A DNA stretch of 64,000 nucleotides from Hexactinellida sp. DTS-2022 (lineage: Eukaryota; Porifera; Hexactinellida). The position numbers were made by a program, and so were the translations under genes. Below are positions 23,991 through 52,260 of this stretch, one piece after another. The notes below the pieces were generated by a model. It did not search any database and was not told where the DNA came from. It saw only the letters and a list, made by a program, of their open reading frames with translations. Position 1 is the stretch's first letter. Each line of letters starts with the position of its first letter. The stretch covers positions 2,666,001-2,730,000 of the forward strand of contig JAPNXP010000002.1 of the NCBI GenBank assembly GCA_028753945.1, given 5' to 3'.

Positions 23991-24720
23991 GACGTGGAGT
24001 AAAATCTAAATTACAAATGTAAATGGTTCAATAACCGAATTTCTAAGAGTCCAGCAATGGCTTACTATATACTACGGCTTGCTAAGGATAGAATTACCCA
24101 AATATTTTCCAGGCCATTGATTACATTCTGTTTGATCATGGATATATCATCTATCGTTGCATGTTCAACTATATTAGGTTTTTATATACGGCGGAAACAT
24201 CTAGACTACTTTAGAGAATAGTTCCTCATTAATTTTTAACCACACTGACGTATTCATAATTGTATTACCATATATGGTTGTTGCGTTCATTTTGTGATAA
24301 TCTTGTCAAAACTTTCCTGAAATTTAACCACATACTTTTCATATCGATACAACCCACATTATTTATATTTATAAATACTAATCAAAAGTGTCATAGGATT
24401 CACTTATGACTCAAAAACTTTTATACACAATATATGATACTTATCCCATGATTGGCTACTTTTTTTTTCATCTTTATTCTGCATTATTCAATAACAGTAC
24501 ATATATGCAAAACATGAACAGATAGAGGAAAATAGCCACTTTTTCTTTCGGCTGATCCTTCAAAATATATATTGGCTCTACGAGCAAAAGATCAAAAATC
24601 GAGTTCAAGAAATAATTACAATAGACATAGTAAAAGCACTGTAGAAAATCAGAACATTCTAGAACAAGTGTAAGCAAGTTTTCGATATAGCTATACGTAA
24701 GCAATCACGCGATTACGTTT
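23991..24720. other. No recognisable feature
   Basis: AT-rich. May hold the remains of the protein that followed the THAP finger. A minus-strand 76-codon frame at 24474-24704 is hydrophobic and unremarkable. Near 24672-24710 a motif GTAAGCAATCACGCGATTACG resembles the end of the small TTAA MITE that follows. Confidence 0.35.
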
Positions 24721-24723
24721 TTT

Positions 24724-24842
24724 TTAAGCAATTACGAGCAATTACTTTTTTTCTGTAGTGACTAATCGGATTTTTGTCATTCGAGATATTTATTGAAAAT
24801 TCCGATTAGTCACCATATAAAAGTATACACGTAATTGCTTAA
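24724..24842. mobile_element. TTAA MITE T7 (119 bp)
   Basis: TTAAGCAATTACGAG... and ...CACGTAATTGCTTAA form the ends. Inside, GTGACTAATCGGA and TCCGATTAGTCAC form a second inverted pair, so the whole can fold into a hairpin. Confidence 0.75.
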
Positions 24843-24899
24843 GAGATAAAGGCTCAGATTAATAAAAGATACATTTTTTTACCTATTTGACGTCACTAA

Positions 24900-25260
24900 A
24901 GTTCAAAATCACTGTTATTTTATACAAAATACATTCCATAAGAATTTCCGGGGAGTAACCTTGTTTATGTAGAGGTTATATGAAATATCAAAATGTATAA
25001 GTGGGAGAAAAAATGACTATCCCTCAAAAAGGATCCTTATCAGTAGAGCCACCAGATATGCCGTGTCGATTTTCAACTGTAATACAAAGTTATAGAGTTA
25101 ATAATTAATCAGAGCCAAATATTGGTAAAATTTGAGCAATTATTTTAAAATCAATAGAAAAAATAATTAAATTGATTCTGACAAATGTACGTGGCGGATC
25201 TGATGTAACTAATAGTAAAGAGTTAAATTAGCACTATTACAGTCCTTGAGCTTAAGGACA
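24900..25260 (+). mobile_element. T4 element, internal fragment
   Basis: Shares with 53740-54010 the blocks 'GATCCTTATCAGTAGAGC', 'GATTTTCAACTGTAATACAA' and GTACGTGGCGGATCTGATG. It stops before the T4 terminus. Confidence 0.8.
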
Positions 25261-25594
25261 TAGCCCATTGAATAAAAAAAGTTAATTGATTTCAAGTTTA
25301 ACGGTATTCCCAGGACTACATAGTGCCTTTTGTATGGGTAGAATATAGAGCTAATGTTTAAGTTTATCTAAACCCCAAATTGGAAGAATAAATTGAGGAA
25401 ATATAACTATGAAATTGATTGAAGCCTTTGTTTTGATTGAAGTATTGAGATATTTTTAGAATTACGTTTTTAAGCTTCATGGAGGTAACATAGTTTCAAC
25501 AGTATGTATTCTTGATCAATTTATATAACTATCTTCAGTAATGCCTTTAGAGTCTAATGAAATTTCTTAGATAGCTCAATAATCAATTCAGATA

Positions 25595-26817
25595 CAGTGC
25601 AAACTCTATAAGTGGGGTCTCTATAAATGGGGAACCTCCATAAGTGGGGAATTTTTTACCATATTCGAATATGTCCATACAAATGAACCTCTATAAGCGG
25701 GGAAGTGGGGAATGGGGGACCATAAATTTCAAGGAGTTTTTATCTGCATACAAAACAACCTCCATAAATGGGGGGAATGGACAAATCCTAACATGATTCT
25801 TATAAAATAATACAATATTTCCAATAAATCGACTCTAAAGTTCTAGAGAAAAAATATTTTCGATTGATCTACTCTGATGTTTTTAGAAGAAATCACCTAG
25901 TGTAGATCAGCAGTTAAGGTTAAATTACCCCACGGGAATGAAATCTCTTGTATTAATCTGTAATTGTTAGAAATAGATCAAGGTACGATACAAAGCAATA
26001 AACAAAAAAGAAAATGTCTCAATATATTATATTTTTTATTTTTTGTCGGTTTCAATATTTGGCTAATACAAATCTCCCATAGGGCGATTTCAAAAAGTGG
26101 TGGTCGATATTATAGTGTAATTTGGCAATGCGGCCATCAATGTTTGTTATCAGAATCAATATTGAAAGATTATAAGCGTACGGAGTTGGTAGTCGGTTTA
26201 CATTTTTGAATTATGACTCTGAAATTATTTTTCAAACATTTTATCAAATATCTCATAAAAAACATGACCTTTTTAATGATTTCTTTAGTTCAAAAGGTCG
26301 CAACTTTTTTTATTTAGGTCAAATCAAAATTCTAAACCAGTCACCTACAGCATATAACGATGATCTATGTGATATATCGCACATAATATGTCTTTAGCTA
26401 ATAATGATCTTGAGATCGACACACTTATCAGGTGGAGTCTGAAGAAATCCCCCTATGGGACTTTTGTATTACCATAAAACTGCACGCCCCATAAAATCGA
26501 ATTTATTCAAAATAATTCGATTTCGTTTTCAGTTTCGATATAGCTATAATGTCTTCTATTATATATGTGAAAATTAAACATCTTACTTCAAAACGAAATT
26601 TATGTGTTTTTTTACATGAATCTGCCGTAATTTAACCTTAACTAAATTGTCATAATATACAAATAATAACTATAACGTGCATTAATGTGTGTGTTATATG
26701 AATACTTTGTATAATATAGCATATATAATGTTTTTCCAATTGAATTTTATAACCGGGGAATGGGGGGCAATTGAAATTTTCCCCGTCCCATGCTCCCCAC
26801 TTATAGAGGTTCCACTG
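25595..26817. mobile_element. pogo/Tigger-type MITE carrying T2
   Basis: The left end CAGTGCAAACTCTATAAGTG and right end CACTTATAGAGGTTCCACTG are inverted repeats, with TA at 25593-25594 and 26818-26819. CTATAAATGGGG/CCATAAGTGGGG motifs repeat inside. Without the 728-bp T2 insertion it is about 495 bp. Confidence 0.85.
25914..26641 (+). mobile_element. TTAA element T2, copy 2 (728 bp)
   Basis: Same length as, and apparently identical to, copy 1 at 6060-6787, in the opposite orientation. TTAA at 25914-25917 and 26638-26641. It is nested in the pogo-type MITE above. Confidence 0.92.
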
Positions 26818-27899
26818 TATCTGCCTGTGGTTTATTCTATGATTTACCAAATTTTCCTGAAATAACATGGATTTATCCCCTAATCCAACTTTAAAAAAAG
26901 CACCGCCGGGTGTAAAATTTGAAAATTAGGATTCGTAGCATCAGATCTGTTCAAAAACACAATAAGAATATCTGCTAAAATTTTCAGAACTCTGAGAACA
27001 CTTTTGTGGTCCCAGTGATGTCCCCCGCCTACGTCACTATGGTCAACAATAATATTCTGAGAAAGACGCTTCCATTGTTTTTTATTATTATTATTTCCGA
27101 AACATTGGGGAATTTATCCCAAATAGTTTTCGGGTATTGTTTTAAGTGGATCATTGATATGACTGGAAAGTTAAAGCTAAGCTCTAGCTATTTTTTAAAT
27201 TCAATATTATGGACCCCAATCTGAAATTACACCACCATATATGGGCATGTGAATTTATAGAATTTTAGCAATTTGGATAATGGTCTCATTTGTTTTTCCT
27301 ATGAGTTTATAAAGGGATATTGATGTGATTAGATGGTTAGACCTAAGCTGTAGCGTCTATACTTTAAGAGAGAGGAAATTTGCTGCGTCATCAAAAATGG
27401 TCACATTACATGCCCATATATGGATCATTTTGATAACGGTGCTTGTTAGGGTCACGAAATGCATTATTCATGGATAGGAAGTCGAGTATTGCGACTATTT
27501 TGAGACGTATTCTTGGATTCCAGCACTTCGGGTGTTTGAGAAAAAAAATGGACAAGAAAACGTACCCTCGAATGGGGTTATAGGCCATAAAGTTTCAAAT
27601 TTTCACCTTTTAACTATTTTTTTTGATCAATTGTTGATTATTTTTGTCTGACGAAACATGGAAAAAGTTATGTTGACATCAGTCTTTCGAATTTTGGAGA
27701 ATGAACCACGGACAATCGACGGAAACGTTGAAATGCTATTCGAATAGAGGCTACTATTCGAATAAATACGGTATTTAGAAGAAAAAAATTATCCCGAATA
27801 TTTTTTTCTTTTTTAAAGCAGTGGTGACGGACAATATATATAGTTTGCACAAAGTTTTGACTATTTTCCATCATTCTTTTCAGAGATATGACCTATTTG

Positions 27900-28257
27900 C
27901 AAGGTTGCAACCGAATAGTTGACCGAATAGTTGCTTTCCGATTAGCTAAAAATCGAACGCTTACCCAAATTCAGGTTTATTGGTTTTTTATGCACCCTGA
28001 TGTATTTAGCTCATCAAATAAAAGCATTTGGCTTACCTGATGATAATATTTTGCTAATCTGATATTAGTATTCGGTTGACCAAGTAGTATTATTCGGTTG
28101 ACCGAATAGTACAATTTGTCAACCGAATACTAACATATATTCAACAAAATATGATTATTAGGTGAAGCAAATACTTGTATTTGTAGACATGGATATACTA
28201 TATGCGGTCCAAAATGCGGCAAGCAACTATTCGGTCAACTATTCGGTTGCAACCTTG
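27900..28257. mobile_element. 358-bp hAT-type MITE with 8-bp target duplication
   Basis: Ends CAAGGTTGCAACCGAATAG and the exact complement, with CCGAATAGTTGACCGAATAG-like repeats inside. Flanks are CCTATTTG at 27892-27899 and 28258-28265. The related family X arm at 7586 has a single CCTATTTG, the empty site. AACCGAATA-type motifs recur in the middle. Confidence 0.93.
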
Positions 28258-28600
28258 CCTATTTGTCTTTCAGTCGATCGGATTTCAGCGTTTCCATCGA
28301 TGTCCGTTGTTCATTCTCCAATATTCGAAAGACTGTGGTCAACATGACTTTCTACATGTTTTGTCAGACAAAAATAATCATCAATTGATCAAAAAAAAGA
28401 GTAAAGGTGAAAATTTGTAACTTTATGGCCTATAATCCTAATCGAGGTTGCGTTTCTTGTCGATTTTTTTCTCAAAACACGCGAGGTGCTAAAATCAAAT
28501 TTACGTCACAAAATACTCGCAATACCCGAATTCATATCCGTCAATAATACATTTCGTGACCCTAACACGGACCGTTTTCAAAATGATCCATATATGGGCA

Positions 28601-28640
28601 TGTAACACAGCGGGGAAAAATAGACACCTGAGGGGAAATA
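28601..28640 (+). repeat. Left end of RAG1-like transposon (target duplication + terminal repeat)
   Basis: TGTAA (28601-28605) is followed by CACAGCG (28606-28612), then a 23-base stretch, then AAATAGGTG starting at 28636. An earlier AAATAG copy begins 5 bases after the heptamer. One heptamer base differs from CACAGTG. Confidence 0.85.
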
Positions 28641-31521
28641 GGTGTTTGCATGCTTCCTACACATTTAAAATGGATTAATTGCATATGGGTTTTCGACTGT
28701 TAGGAATCGACTGGTATGGTTTTTTTTTTCTACAGCTTCTACCACCAAAATTATGACGTCATTGGAAAAATATGCAAAAAAATAAAATAAATTCCAATAA
28801 TGAACAAATCATTGGTTACTGAGCTGAATAGTGCTGGCATAACAAAATATAACTTTTATAAACAATGCATTTAATAGATTATCTTGTTCCGAGTGGGGAA
28901 AAGAAGTATTGCAGTGTAGTTTGCAAATGTGGCTAGGTTCTCCGCATTTCTACCAAACTACTTGATGTCTAAATGAAGTAAAAACTGGGTCGCTTTGTGA
29001 TAAAAGACGCACAAAGACTTGTTACATGATTCAACCGCTTCTTCAGAAAATTTCTCCATCCCGAACCCTTTGTTACAATCCCTAATTAACTCCGTGCTAT
29101 GAGCTAACAACTTGTGGAGGGATGGTGTAATATTCACCCATGGAAATTTACTAAGATGAATTCGTATGTTTCTCGACATAGAAGACCTTGAGTATCGGTA
29201 TTTATCTCCCTACTACTACTGCAAGAGCGCAGGATAGCTGAGAGATTGTTAAGAATTTTCGTGAGAGAATCATGGAAATCTGCTGGAACTAAGGTTGTAA
29301 TCCAATGTATGAAGTTATTATTATTGCTAAAACATTCACGAGCTAAGTTACCAGTAGATGTTGCACCTCCATCACTAGAAGGTTGGTCAATTTTGAGGCC
29401 TGTTTTCTCTTGTAAGAAATCACGAACAAATTTCAATGAGTTTTACTTTAGCAGATGTTGGTGACCATTTATTAGATCCGGAATGTAAATGGTACACAAG
29501 TGTCATGAACCATCGAAATACACATGTGTATGAATGGGGAGGAGAAGCAGGTAGTGTCTCAATTTCGGATAATGGTTCATGAGTTAGGCCAAATCGTTCT
29601 TGAGATGGGAGTGATAAATACTCAGTCTTGTAAACGGAAGCAAATATATCTCTTGCAGCTGATATACATAGTTCTATTAATTGGGAATCCAGATCTTACT
29701 AGATCAATGTCGTGAAGCTCTGCGAATGTGGCTGTGCATAATTGGCATTTTGCACCGCCATCACCGGTTAGGATACCCGACATTTTCCCATCGAACATGC
29801 TACGGTATACCTTAACTTTCACAAGGTCTTGCGGGAGATCAATACCATCTTGTTCAATAAGTTTGGTTTCGGGATTAATGATTGCCTCCATCAGGAATCG
29901 CACATTTTTCTCGCTTTCTTTCATGGCTATTAATGCAACAGGTCTAATTTGAAAATGGGAATTAGGCAGGGAATTTATCCAAACGTCGTTGTCAGAAGAA
30001 TCTTTAATTGAAAGTAGTTTGAAAGCAAATAACAAGAGGTTCTTCGAATTAAAATGTACACTCTCTTGTAGTTGGTTATAAATCTGATGGGAACCAGAAC
30101 CATCAAGGCCGTCTGATATTCTGAGCGCCAATGCGAATTGACCATCGTTTAAATTAGGGAGTGTGGAGAGCAAGCGAGTAAGTATCTATTTCAGCATCAT
30201 TCGATGTGCAATACAAATGCCAACAGTAACTTGAGTTGAGTTGTAAACGAACTGGAGATCATTAGCAAGAGTTATCTCAGCACAGTGTAGAGCTACCACC
30301 TTGTATGCTGGAAGAAAGACATTTTCTGTGTCTAACAACCTCTTTAGGTCGGTATACTTTTGTTTTCCTATCTCGAGTTGATCAAGGAGAAAAGTAGATT
30401 TTTCAATTGATATTTGTTGTCCTGTATGGCCGAAATTACCTTTAGATATTATTTCCTTACAAAATTGCGAAGTGGTTTGGTCGTGAGTTTGATTTGATAT
30501 AAGTTGGAGGCAATAAGTAGCAATAGTTTTGCTATCAAAATCTTCTTTCTCCGCAATCTGACAAATTAGATCTAATAAAGGTCCTAGTCTAACTCTCAAT
30601 CCTTTGAGAGTTAACTGTGAGATAGGTTTTCGTATTTCTGCCGACAAGTCAGCCTCAAATACTGTTTTGTCGACACAATATCGTTTAATAGCTGGGAGTT
30701 CAGTAACAAGTGCAGGCGAATAGAAGGACAAATCTACCCAAGTGGATAAATCTTTCAGTTTGAGAAAGAAGTCTCTATCCGCTTTAAGTTGGCTGAATTA
30801 CCTGAGAAAAAAATGAAATTCGCAATCTGGAATTTGAAAAGATCGTAGAAATTCGTTAACAGAGGCTCGGATCGAAGGTTGGGAACTTAGTAGTTCAAAA
30901 GCGTCCTTATTGTTCATTATAATCTATTTATTTAAATACATACAAAATATTATAATTTTGATTTTTCAAATATTTGACCAGAAGACAATGTCATATGTAA
31001 TAGAATATTTTTCTGGGAAGTTTGGGAGGCTGAAATTTACCTTAAATTAAGCTAAAATCATAAGCTACAAGATTTAATCTTCAAAACATCTGCCCACGAC
31101 CGGACACTATAAGTTTTGTAACTATATTGGCGGATTAATTTGTGTCCGATCACGAACAAATTCATCTAGAGGAAATGTAAAAATTTAGGCTGAATAATAT
31201 TAGAAAATGTTCTTGATAAACTGCTATAGTTAGTTTGAATACCTATGAAGGAAATGCCATAGAGAGGTATCAGTATCCATGTAATAAAAATAGTATGACT
31301 TGTATGAATATCAACTTCACTCTTGCGTAACCACAACAATCCATTTTTGATGAATTTTACGTCATGGATTCTACCTCAAGATTACATAATCTTGAAATAT
31401 ATTTCGACTTCGAAAATTCGTTTCTCTAGGTTTTAGATAGTGCTGAATCCGAATATGCTAAAATAATCAAGATTCATCAATGTGAAATAACACATCTATT
31501 TCTCCCCAATTCCCCACTGTG
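28606..31521 (-). mobile_element. RAG1/Transib-type DNA transposon, complete ends, 2,916 bp
   Basis: Terminal inverted repeats begin CACAGCGGGGA (left) and CACAGTGGGGA (right, minus strand). Perfect 5-bp duplications TGTAA flank the element (28601-28605, 31522-31526), as expected for Transib and RAG-type transposases. It is inserted in the right arm of family X. The left arm at 27406-27410 has the same site uninterrupted. It encodes one RAG1-like core (30917 to 28958, minus), leaving about 0.35 kb and 0.6 kb of flanking sequence, so there is no RAG2 partner. With stops and frameshifts in the gene, this copy is not autonomous. Confidence 0.92.
28958..30917 (-). pseudogene. RAG1-like / Transib-superfamily transposase, inactivated
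   Basis: ATG at 30917 (MNNKDAFELLSSQ), about 650 codons in all. The same frame continues to about 29640 with two stops (near 30800 and at 30186-30188). After a frameshift it goes on through TEYLSLPSQERFGLTHEPLS, shifts again before FVRDFLQEKTGLK (29436), and shifts once more near 29170. RAG1-type landmarks: first Asp in RISDGLDGSGSH (30113 or 30104); second in SMFDGKMSGIL (29792); the zinc pair CQLC (near 29745); GATSTGNLAREC, matching RAG1's 'NGNFARKL' block; LLAHSTELI, matching RAG1 'TLAHVPEII'; and the glutamate in EKFSEEAVESCNK (near 29041). There is no RING or nonamer-binding region at the N-terminus, as in Transib. These enzymes cut by a hairpin mechanism and insert with 5-bp duplications (family knowledge). 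Confidence 0.9.
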
Positions 31522-31526
31522 TGTAA
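31490..31526 (-). repeat. Right end of RAG1-like transposon (terminal repeat + target duplication)
   Basis: On the minus strand: CACAGTG (31521-31515), 13 bases, AAATAGATG. Outside lies TGTAA (31522-31526). CACAGTG equals the V(D)J recombination heptamer consensus. Confidence 0.88.
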
Positions 31527-32036
31527 TGTGCCCATTTTTGATGAGTCAGCAAATTTCCTCTCTAATAAAGTATAGACGCTAGAGCTTAGCACTAACCATC
31601 TTATCACATCAATATCCCATCACAAACTCATTGGAAGAACAAATGAGACCGTTATCCAAATGGCTACAATTCTAAAAATTCACATGCCCATATATGGTGG
31701 TGTCATTTCAGTGATGTGTCCATAAGTTTGAATTTTAAAAAATAGCTAGAGCTTAGCTCGAACTTTCCAGTCATATGAATGATCTATTTTAACGAATACC
31801 CTAAAAATAATTGGGATAAATTCCCCACAGTTTCGTAAATATAATTTTAATAAACTTTGCAAGCTTCTTTCCGAGAATATTATTGTTGACCATAGTGACG
31901 TAGACGGGGGACATCACTGGGACCACAAAAGTGTACTTAGAGTTCTGAAAATGTTCGCACATATTCTATTAGTGTTTTTGAACAGATCTACTACTACGAA
32001 TCGGAAATATCAAATTTTACACCCGGCGGTGCTAGT

Positions 32037-32515
32037 TTAAGGTTAAATTACGGGAGATTCTTGCAAAAAAACACAAATTTGGTTTGCAAAATCATTATTA
32101 GCTAAAGACATATTCTGTGCGATATATCATATATATCATCGTTATGGGCGGTTCGTGGCCGGTTTAGAATTTTGATTTGACCTAAATACAAGAAATTGCG
32201 ACCATTTGAACGCAAAAAATTGAAAAAGGTCATCTTTTGATGCTATATTTGATAATATGTTTGAAAAATATATTTGGAGTCATAATTCAAAAATGGTAAC
32301 CGACTACCAACTCAGTATGCTTATAATCTGTAATTATTGATTCTGATAACAAACATTGATGGCCGCATTCCCAAAATACCGCATCATTTCGGCCACCACT
32401 TTTGGAAATCGCCCTATGGGAGATTTATACCTGCCTAATTTTGAAACTGACAAAAAATAAAATGTATAATAGATAGAGACATTTTCCTTTTGGTTTATTG
32501 CTTTTAGCGCACTGT
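32037..32515 (-). mobile_element. T2 copy 4, truncated
   Basis: Begins TTAAGGTTAAATTACGGGAG, sharing its TTAA with the end of family X, and follows T2 for about 475 bp to 'GGTTTATTGCTTTTAGC'. The far end is missing. Many differences from copies 1 and 2. Confidence 0.85.
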
Positions 32516-33574
32516 AGATTGACACGGGAATTAGGCTTGATTTTCAAGTTTTTCAAATCAATACAAAAATAACTTATTCATAATAAGCACTATCGAATGC
32601 ATAGAAAGCATGTCAATTGGCAATTTATTCGTGTTATAACTACACTCCCTTAAGCTATAACTTAGTAACGTTGAAATGTAAATTAATTTGTCCATATTTG
32701 TGGTTAAAATCACTTATCTAATGTTTCTTATAAATCCCTTTAGTATTAGGCGCATAGATTTAAAATTTTCAGTTATAGAACTAGATGTGTAGTACATCTT
32801 GAATAACAGTAATTAGCTAATCTACTTGCTAAAATATTCGTTGGCGTAACATTTTGACATTCATGAGCTTACTACCATTTCGGACAACATATCCCCCCAT
32901 TATAAAATGTTGATACTTGTTGTGGCCAGTCGTGGCCATATAATTTTAAACTTTTATATTATACATTTATATACAGACTATATGAATAAATAAATTCCAG
33001 CTCCGCGAAAAGGCGCGACGGTGACCATATATTTGTTAAATAATTGTCCTTAGATTTCGACATATTCATTAAATGGAATAATATATTTGTTATACACTCC
33101 CATTATTGAATATATATCCATTATAATTGATTATTAGAATGAATAATAAGCAAGCATTTAAATTCTTAAATACTCACTCATCGATAAGATCTGCTACTGA
33201 AGAATTTATAAAACAATACGAAGTTCCGGATCAAATAATGTAACCGGATCAAGTAATATAACCAATAATCATGGGTGAACAATAAAATGTTGTTAACAAA
33301 CCAAAAATATTATTTTGACTGAATTATCATTAATTGTCTGGAACCACGTTTAGGAGGCTACATACATCATTTTCAATGATGCCATTCAATTCCCAGCAAT
33401 CAATAACCTATATGTCAATAATAATTCATGAATGGCTGTCTGCTACTAAAATGCCTATTTCCCCTAAATTGTCATTCTCGCCCACTGTGCAATGGTTAGT
33501 ATGTCAACTACATCTGAGAGAATTACCACTGAGAGTGATGTTCAGAAAAATAGATGGAGTTACCAATGGGCCAC
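32516..33574. other. No recognisable feature
   Basis: AT-rich, no convincing coding. The 106-codon plus frame at 33334-33654 runs into the satellite and has no recognisable domain. Confidence 0.35.
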
Positions 33575-49704: not shown

Positions 49705-50226
49705 GGAGATAGAATATCAAATTTCAATAAAAAATCATAATTATGAAGTAGGGTATTTTCGTATTGAATAATATTCCCTGACATGGTATGTTTCCAAATA
49801 TGATGTTAAATTTGATTCCGATTATTTTTGGATGACGTATGCCCTCTCAAACCGCATACACCCAGCCGATCTTTCTCAGAAAATCTTCAGAAAAAAATAT
49901 ATATATATATTTTTCAAAAATTCGAATATATATCAGTAAAACTACCAATAAGAGTATGAAAACTGTTAGGTAGACTTTTTTTTGTGCGTACACAATTTAG
50001 GGCATCCCTGAGTCTCGAATCCAAGACCCTCAGCTCAAAGTTCCTTTGCCAAACCAAACAGTAACCGCTACTCTTCAAAATAAGTAATGTCTGCATATAG
50101 TAATTATATTATTCAATTTATTATACACCCATAGTGAATTTATATGAGAAATATACAAGGACTACTAATTTCATAAATGTTTGTATATCCATTTATCGAT
50201 ATTTATAGCACATTTGAACTCTAGAT

Positions 50227-52260
50227 TTGATGACAAGCAAAGACGTAGCATACTTACCTCCAGAAGATTCAGACAGCAGCAGTCAGGAGATGAAGATCCA
50301 TACGGTACCTAGTACGGGTCTCTCACAGGATGTCGACATGGTGACCCTGACTTCCGGTGCTAGTACGCCTTCCAAAAGTTCGACGCCGCGCAGACGGAGG
50401 GTTTTCGGGATAAAGGTCAAGAGGAACAGAACCACCTTCGCCACGCCTCGCAAGCTGTTCCCGTCGAAGAGATGTCGGATCATAACGCCAGAGGATTCGG
50501 GAGAGACGCCATCAGCTGACAGTCCCACCAGTTCGCAAGCGCCGCCATCAGCTGATACTGCCACCACTTCACAAGCCCCTGAGAGCCCCGTCTCCAGCGC
50601 ATCGAAGAAGCTTGGTACTGGGTTTTCCCAATTTGAAGAAGAAAGGGTTACCTGTCAGATATCTGTGAGAGATCCGCAGTTGACAGAACAGATGGTATCC
50701 GTATCAGAGGTTCGTTCCAATTTGGTAATTGATTCTGGTGTATTGCAACATGTTCTATCTATCTGTGCTATTTGTAAAATATGTAAGAGAGGGGATCTAA
50801 AATTGTGGGATAAGGGTACAAAAAGTTGTTTTGGAAATTATCTTACTCTACGTTGCGGGGCGTGCGGTCGGGGCGAGGATTTCTGGACAGTTTCTGGTAA
50901 ATTTGGTAAGAAAATTGATATAGGTGGTAAATTAGTAAGTAAACGTAATGATACTGTGTACCAATCCGTTCTCGCGGGTCGCCTGATAGGGGTGGGTAGG
51001 AAAAGACTAGGGGTATACCATGACATGCTTGGACTAGCTCCTCCGCCTGACAGCTTCAATCGTATACAAGAAGATTTGTTAGTTGCAGTTGAGTTAGTGG
51101 CCAAGCAATCCATGGATAGAGCAGCGTCAGAGCTTGAGGCTCTCCATGGAAGATGTGAGAACGGGTTGATTCACGACATAGCTTCGTTCGATGGGGCGTA
51201 TCAGAAGAGGTCGACTAAAGGTGGTGGTGGTTATAGTAGGTACTGTTTTGCATCCGTGATTAGTATGACATTAGGTAAAATACTTGCTTTTGATGTCGCG
51301 TGTAATAGTTGCCGCGAGTGCACTCGTATCGCAAACATGGTAGAGGAACAATGCTTGGACAAAGAGGAACACGATAAATTAGTCGATTCCCACCAGCCTC
51401 AATGCCCGGCCAAGTATAGTGCTTACTCTAGCGTGTGTCTAGAAAACGAACTTTCTACTGTGCTCCTAGAGCAAGCACTAACCCGTGGTATTGCATTCGA
51501 TGGCTTGGTCTGCGATGGAGATAATAAAACATTTGCTAAAGTTACCCAGCATAACCCATACGCAGCCATAGCACCTCTCCATAAAATTCAGCGTTACGAG
51601 TGCCTCGCCCACGTTGGAAAAAGGATGAAGGGACACTTGATCGAGCATCAGAAAGACCAACTAAGGGAGTCAAGATCCAATAAAAAACAGGAGAGAACCA
51701 AACTTATAACATTAGGAGGAGCTGAGAAAGCCGTAGATAAGCAGCTAAAAAGTAAATACAGAGGTAAACTAGTGAGAAAAACTATACCAAGAGGTGACTG
51801 GGGTGAGGATGCGGAAGAAGTAAAGTTTCTTAGTGACGAAATGTGTTCTCGAATAACTTCATTATATCAACTTGCGGTAAAACAGCATCTTGGTAACACG
51901 CCGGATATTTTAGAAGCAGTAAAATCAATTCCATTACATTTGGGGGCTACTGATGAAAATGCATCAGAAAATCATAAGTTCTGCCCGAAGGGTCCCCAGT
52001 CGTGGTGTCGCTATCAACGAGCCATTTATTCCGTAGAAATTCCCCCACGTCACCCAAATAATCTTAGTGTCGACGCCGTAGAAATAATAACTCGAGTATT
52101 TTCCAAATATAACTATGATAAAGAATACTTTATAAACCAAATAGCAGACGGACAAACTAGTAATCATAACGAGGCAGTACATAATATTCTATTCACAATG
52201 GTAAGGAAGACAGAAGCAGTAGGATTGATAATAATGAAATTGGGGCCGCTTTGGCACTAA
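50227..52260 (+). CDS. Mutator-type DDE transposase of T4 (677 codons, C-terminus frameshifted)
   Basis: Residues 1-130 are Ser/Thr/Pro-rich with a basic stretch (TPRRRRVFGIKVKRNR near 53-68), perhaps a nuclear signal. Cys pairs at 180/183/186 and 210/213 suggest a zinc finger. The catalytic region follows the metazoan 'Mutator-like transposase' pattern: SFDGAYQKR (Asp 322), FDGLVCDGD (Asp 430), the zinc-like YECLAHVGKRMKGH (about 457-470) and SNHNEAVHN (Glu 649). Normal coding continues beyond Glu 649 in another frame (NNEIGAALALIRYN, near 52225-52268) and again in a third frame leading into the PHD part. Two small shifts within about 40 bases therefore separate the core from its tail. The ORF is otherwise intact. 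The start may be ATG at 50230, one codon after the TTG/ATG reported. Confidence 0.88.
   Translation: MMTSKDVAYLPPEDSDSSSQEMKIHTVPSTGLSQDVDMVTLTSGASTPSKSSTPRRRRVFGIKVKRNRTTFATPRKLFPSKRCRIITPEDSGETPSADSPTSSQAPPSADTATTSQAPESPVSSASKKLGTGFSQFEEERVTCQISVRDPQLTEQMVSVSEVRSNLVIDSGVLQHVLSICAICKICKRGDLKLWDKGTKSCFGNYLTLRCGACGRGEDFWTVSGKFGKKIDIGGKLVSKRNDTVYQSVLAGRLIGVGRKRLGVYHDMLGLAPPPDSFNRIQEDLLVAVELVAKQSMDRAASELEALHGRCENGLIHDIASFDGAYQKRSTKGGGGYSRYCFASVISMTLGKILAFDVACNSCRECTRIANMVEEQCLDKEEHDKLVDSHQPQCPAKYSAYSSVCLENELSTVLLEQALTRGIAFDGLVCDGDNKTFAKVTQHNPYAAIAPLHKIQRYECLAHVGKRMKGHLIEHQKDQLRESRSNKKQERTKLITLGGAEKAVDKQLKSKYRGKLVRKTIPRGDWGEDAEEVKFLSDEMCSRITSLYQLAVKQHLGNTPDILEAVKSIPLHLGATDENASENHKFCPKGPQSWCRYQRAIYSVEIPPRHPNNLSVDAVEIITRVFSKYNYDKEYFINQIADGQTSNHNEAVHNILFTMVRKTEAVGLIIMKLGPLWH

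Follow-up and report, generated by a model that had tools for sequence, protein, structure and literature searches.

A dead Transib transposon in a probable glass-sponge genome and the pairing of short and long ends in its family

Can a transposase related to RAG1 pair one short with one long end in an element that carries no RAG2? This question is raised by a transposon in the 64,000 nucleotides of contig JAPNXP010000002.1 that we analysed as a whole (the window). The origin of the 12/23 rule of V(D)J recombination is debated, and published views disagree (PMC8355894 versus PMC9435367). We conclude that the window element is very probably a dead autonomous cut-and-paste Transib in what is probably a glass-sponge genome, and that Subgroup I is the class of Transibs in which it is best placed. 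Since this genome supplies two intact transposase genes, roughly 300 naturally occurring ends and numerous short non-autonomous copies flanked by exact duplications, the 12/23 question can be tested here in elements without RAG2.

The transposon is 2,916 bp long and occupies positions 28606-31521, exactly as given in the initial annotation. It is flanked on both sides by a perfect 5-bp duplication, TGTAA (28601-28605 and 31522-31526). When the flanks are joined with a single TGTAA, all 40 scored copies of the repeat in which the element sits (out of 687 first-look candidates genome-wide) match across the junction with 88-91% identity; the insertion and the duplication are therefore real. This host repeat (28480-28605 plus 31527-31697) is short and very abundant; its inverted arms, CCATATATGGGCATGT, are 16 bp long and lie at 28588-28603 and 31682-31697.

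The transposase gene lies on the minus strand (28809-30917, with the ATG at 30915-30917). It had been called dead in this copy, and indeed an intact relative aligns with it in five pieces across three frames. Furthermore, it lacks about 21 residues around element position 412, a place at which several of the other copies are roughly 60-70 bp longer. The expected RAG1/Transib core of D, D, CxxC and E is there in order: alignment with relatives locates, all on the minus strand, the first catalytic Asp (DGLDG, 30102-30104), the second catalytic Asp (MFDGKM, 29790-29792), the CQLC zinc ligands of the CxxC motif (29736-29747) and the catalytic Glu (EEAVESCNK, 29030-29032). By motif comparison, the C-terminal tail holds a partial zinc-knuckle-like motif in its C..SH..C version (28910-28946, minus strand). 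A Pfam search with the pieces of the gene gave no transposase match and two noise matches.

A search of the whole assembly (112 Mb, 18 contigs), which the initial annotation had proposed, found at least 54 DNA matches to the element, with identities from 100% (the element itself) to 65%. Two relatives that had been missed before, L021 and L022, each have an uninterrupted gene of 712 codons. Over 2,769 bp their identity is 98.95%, and both have exact 5-bp duplications (TGCCA and TGCCC); judging from these sequences, recent transposition in this family is likely. L022 is a complete element of 3,010 bp with a single open reading frame of at least 140 residues, which bears out the claim that the element has no RAG2. 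A crude count gave a ratio of nonsynonymous to synonymous changes (dN/dS) of 0.68 for L021 versus L022, from 17 differences, and of 0.25-0.86 between lineages, and we draw no conclusion from it. All close protein homologs with a named source come from the glass sponge Oopsacas minuta (3 named among 48 in one search and 16 named among 88 in another, the rest being without a name), and for this reason we take the host to be probably a glass sponge.

What kind of transposase is it? The profile search that had been suggested ranks HzTransib first (5.9e-47), followed by amphioxus RAG1L (3e-18) and RAG1 (1.8e-14), with the catalytic residues aligned. The best fold match is also to the Transib superfamily of DDE transposases, and RAG1 is the sole Pfam family over the cut-off, for three of five proteins from the genome. 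The label "RAG1-like" is correct for the RAG1/Transib superfamily as a whole, but the profile scores put the protein far nearer to HzTransib than to RAG1L or RAG1. Besides a DDE transposase nearest to Transib, we find a 5-bp duplication, CAC termini with a heptamer like that of the recombination signal sequences (RSS), and a single gene. That the element belongs to a different superfamily, for example CACTA or Chapaev, and resembles RAG1 by chance has hardly any probability: we found no point in its support, and the 5-bp duplications in the end pairs, the fold match and the profile scores contradict it.

A more specific alternative is that the element is a RAGL transposon after the loss of its RAG2L gene. 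Several features of the protein point in that direction. A fold match indicates a RAG1-type nonamer-binding domain that starts near residue 90 of the 712-residue intact protein (about residues 90-156). The entry for this domain, 3gna, is absent from the 50 rows of a second model's fold-match listing. The C terminus is readable in 38 sponge proteins: 19 carry a RAG1L-type zinc tail (Cx2Cx3[GN]Hx3-8C), 8 have the CxxC only and 11 have neither. The core identity to BbRAG1L is slightly higher for the sponge proteins than for HzTransib-type proteins (23.9% vs 20.9%). On the other hand, the profile scores are much closer to HzTransib, the RAG1 N-terminal zinc/RING region is missing from the intact protein, and the complete intact element has one gene and no RAG2L gene. 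A genome-wide RAG2 search also gave no match, but its controls went undetected as well, so that it does not establish absence from the genome. We consider the loss of RAG2L to be very unlikely, and on its sequence we read the protein as a Transib transposase with intermediate features, not as a RAGL protein. A tree, also suggested earlier, places the sponge proteins in a clan of their own alongside an HzTransib-type and a RAG clan, all with very long branches; the order of the clans is not readable from it, because it is unrooted and its BbRAG1L and mouse RAG1 rows are partial.

In the literature, a Transib tree has been rooted on bacterial Transib-like proteins, one of them named after Candidatus Thioglobus (Tao 2022, PMC9435367). 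We suspected that a sequence of this sort might be sponge DNA that had ended up in a symbiont bin. Our two scans of GTDB contigs for bacterial relatives, one with the sponge alignment and one with a sponge and insect alignment, gave 86 and 76 pattern matches with none confirmed, and a scan of viral contigs gave 46 pattern matches with no relative confirmed. No relative is reachable by the motif patterns used, and contamination of bacterial Transibs is neither backed nor refuted by these scans.

Next, we turn to the ends, whose bipartite and asymmetric structure the initial annotation did not describe. Transib ends in this genome consist of CACAGTGGG and a second box, GGAARTAGG. The pattern CACAGYGGGN{2,30}GGAARTAGG has 296 exact matches genome-wide, and the reversed pattern has none. 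The spacers are bimodal: 94 ends form a short class with 10-12 bp (91 of 11 bp, 2 of 12 bp and 1 of 10 bp), 200 form a long class with 19-22 bp (67 of 21 bp and 33 of 20 bp among the 100 listed) and the remaining two fall outside both classes. The heptamer is CACAGTG in all 194 listed ends of the 294 in the two classes (94 of 94 short, 100 of 200 long); note that the search admitted CACAGYG only.

Comparison of close copies shows that the window element has one end of each class. The long end, on the 3' side of the gene (28606-28642, plus strand), reads CACAGCG, a 21-bp spacer and GGAAATAGG. The short end, on the 5' side (31485-31521, minus strand), reads CACAGTG, an 11-bp spacer and a degenerate box, AGAAATAGA, which matches at 7 of 9 positions and ties with other offsets; in the close copies L009 and L010 the box matches at 8 of 9 positions with the 11-bp spacing. 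The heptamers had been given as CACAGCG and CACAGTG. The latter is exactly that of the family, whereas the former is peculiar to the window copy: all four close copies examined have CACAGTG at this end, with a spacer of 21 bp in L010, L011 and L014 and of 20 bp in L015. A second Transib-type long end lies at 33454-33489 (minus strand; CACAGTG, 20 bp and GGAAATAGG). No partner end with a duplication was found for it in window 24001-33400, and from its sequence we take it to be a solo or decayed Transib copy.

Are short and long ends joined in pairs? We considered the 153 ends in regions where both end lists are complete and counted neighbours that face each other within 8 kb. There are 31 such pairs, 29 of which are short+long, one short+short and one long+long; from the proportions of the two classes, 45% short+long would be expected. 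Another seven neighbouring ends within that distance are not in facing orientation. An exact 5-bp flank duplication is present in 19 of the 31 pairs, and all 19 are short+long. Neither same-class pair has a flank match; among the 12 pairs without an exact 5-bp duplication, one has a duplication off by one base, one an exact 6-bp repeat and one an exact 4-bp repeat. Different borders in other copies, or duplications of 3-4 bp, had been named as evidence against the original description; the borders are common to the copies, and 4 bp occurs in that one pair.

The same question can be asked without reference to the second box. We took 21 loci found through their similarity to the element and looked for termini of the form CAC[AT][AG][TC]G together with an exact duplication; six loci have both (0 of 90 in a control with displaced flanks). 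The long/short box spacers are 21/11 in the window element (with the tie noted above), L010 and L027, 20/11 in L021 and L022, and 21/7 in L020. Furthermore, the short end is on the 5' side of the gene in all eight distinct elements for which both ends and the orientation are known, that is, the window element, L010, L020, L021, L022 (= L060), L027 (= L069), L059, which has no duplication, and L061, whose duplication is off by one base.

The pairing itself is observed, and the main rival to its being enforced at synapsis is inheritance. The element would then be a Transib whose founders happened to have one end of each kind, an asymmetry that the transposase does not need. Two observations weigh on this side. 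Many pairs come from short families that are related to one another (19 of the 31 span 1.13-1.17 kb), so the copies are not independent events and any probability that assumes independence is too strong; and L020, with its 7-bp short spacer, is an exception to the 11-bp rule which indicates that the spacing is able to change. On the other hand, the asymmetry is kept in diverged gene-bearing lineages (window/L010, L021/L022, L020 and L027); the proteins of L021, L026, L020 and L017 share 53-59% identity with L021 as the reference. The spacer sequences also vary: the 31 short spacers comprise 15 different sequences and the 31 long spacers 18. We give inheritance a substantial chance of being right, although one well short of even. 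That short+long is instead required at synapsis, with a RAG2-less transposase from outside the Bilateria enforcing a one-short/one-long rule through a nonamer-binding domain on a box at 11 or 20-21 bp, is a proposal that we hold to be nearly an even bet. If it is right, the 12/23 logic would predate RAG2 and the chordates and would reside in the RAG1/Transib subunit itself.

How could such an element have moved? Its single gene would have coded for a RAG1-like transposase some 710 residues long, a dimer of which may nick and hairpin the DNA at the CACAGTG heptamers, by analogy with the chemistry of HzTransib and RAG. Judging from its fold and from RAG1, the nonamer-binding-type domain would grip GGAARTAGG, and the zinc tail, where present, may contact the DNA next to the heptamer, as its counterpart in amphioxus RAG1L does. 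The complex would then join an end with its box 11 bp away to one with its box 20-21 bp away and insert the element with a 5-bp stagger. The cut-and-paste chemistry and the stagger are proposed because of membership in the Transib family.

Other mobile sequences were seen along the way. A 300-codon frame at L021:153-1052, adjoining the intact Transib, looks like a pogo/Tigger-type transposase, and the frames at L012:6402-9851 look like a retroelement polyprotein, both names being our own reading of the frames. In the window, 50218-52260 (plus strand) is an open frame of 680 codons for a Mutator-like transposase (PF20700, 3.4e-38), located in the GC-richest 2-kb bin. Many sponge-type proteins (P0001-P0135) carry the precomputed label PF26100; hmmscan with Pfam gave no PF26100 match in any that we tried.

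How does the family compare with known systems? Four features describe the Subgroup I Transibs: their ends are asymmetric, their C-terminal tail is of type I (Cx2Cx3GHx4C-like), they have an alpha11-alpha12 region, and they are close to RAG1L; asymmetric ends have also been argued to be ancestral (Tao 2022, PMC9435367). The initial annotation did not mention this class. By that description, the sponge family appears to fit it where compared: it shares the asymmetric ends, the type I zinc tail and the nonamer-binding-type domain. It also has a stretch of about 35-40 residues after the CxxC, a putative counterpart of RAG1 alpha11-alpha12. It differs in its host, probably a glass sponge, and in its tail, since half of the proteins with a readable C terminus have a changed motif or none. 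We found no report of a sponge Transib in titles or abstract openings of the open-access literature, and in the main text of two glass-sponge genome papers (PMC10280926, PMC10282587), transposon, transposable, Transib and RAG do not occur as whole words (each has one word beginning with "transposon"). If the host is indeed a glass sponge, a sponge lineage is added to Subgroup I, a proposed intermediate between Transib and RAG1L. The kind of element is already known; the value of the sponge family is that its end rule is legible from hundreds of copies with no RAG2 in the element.

HzTransib and the insect Subgroup II Transibs share with the sponge family the catalytic core, the fold, a protein of about 700 residues, the 5-bp duplication and the single gene (for HzTransib, the last two as given in PMC7204232). 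In contrast, HzTransib-type proteins have only about 26% core identity to the sponge proteins, lack the post-CxxC stretch and have no zinc tail (0 of 96 readable relatives). Ends that resemble the 12/23 arrangement are known from a few insect Transibs (PMC8355894).

Bipartite asymmetric ends are also found in RAGL transposons, with an end spacing of 27/31 in amphioxus ProtoRAG (PMC8289069) and, in the algal AanRAGL, a 13-bp element, spaces of 4/13 bp and a 10-bp element (PMC9435367). Counted from a 7-bp heptamer, the latter corresponds by our own arithmetic to 10/19, near the 11/20-21 of the sponge. RAGL transposons have RAG2L and the RAG1L N-terminal region, whereas the sponge element has neither.

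The V(D)J signals share with the sponge ends the heptamer CACAGTG and, on the protein side, a RAG1-type nonamer-binding domain. According to PMC8355894, it is only where RAG1 acts with RAG2, in jawed vertebrates, that spacer asymmetry is recognised. The sponge box GGAARTAGG is unlike the RSS nonamer ACAAAAACC, and a transposon without RAG2 stands against a RAG1/RAG2 recombinase. In both systems, the two spacings are about one helical turn apart, 11 versus 20-21 in the sponge and 12 versus 23 in the RSS.
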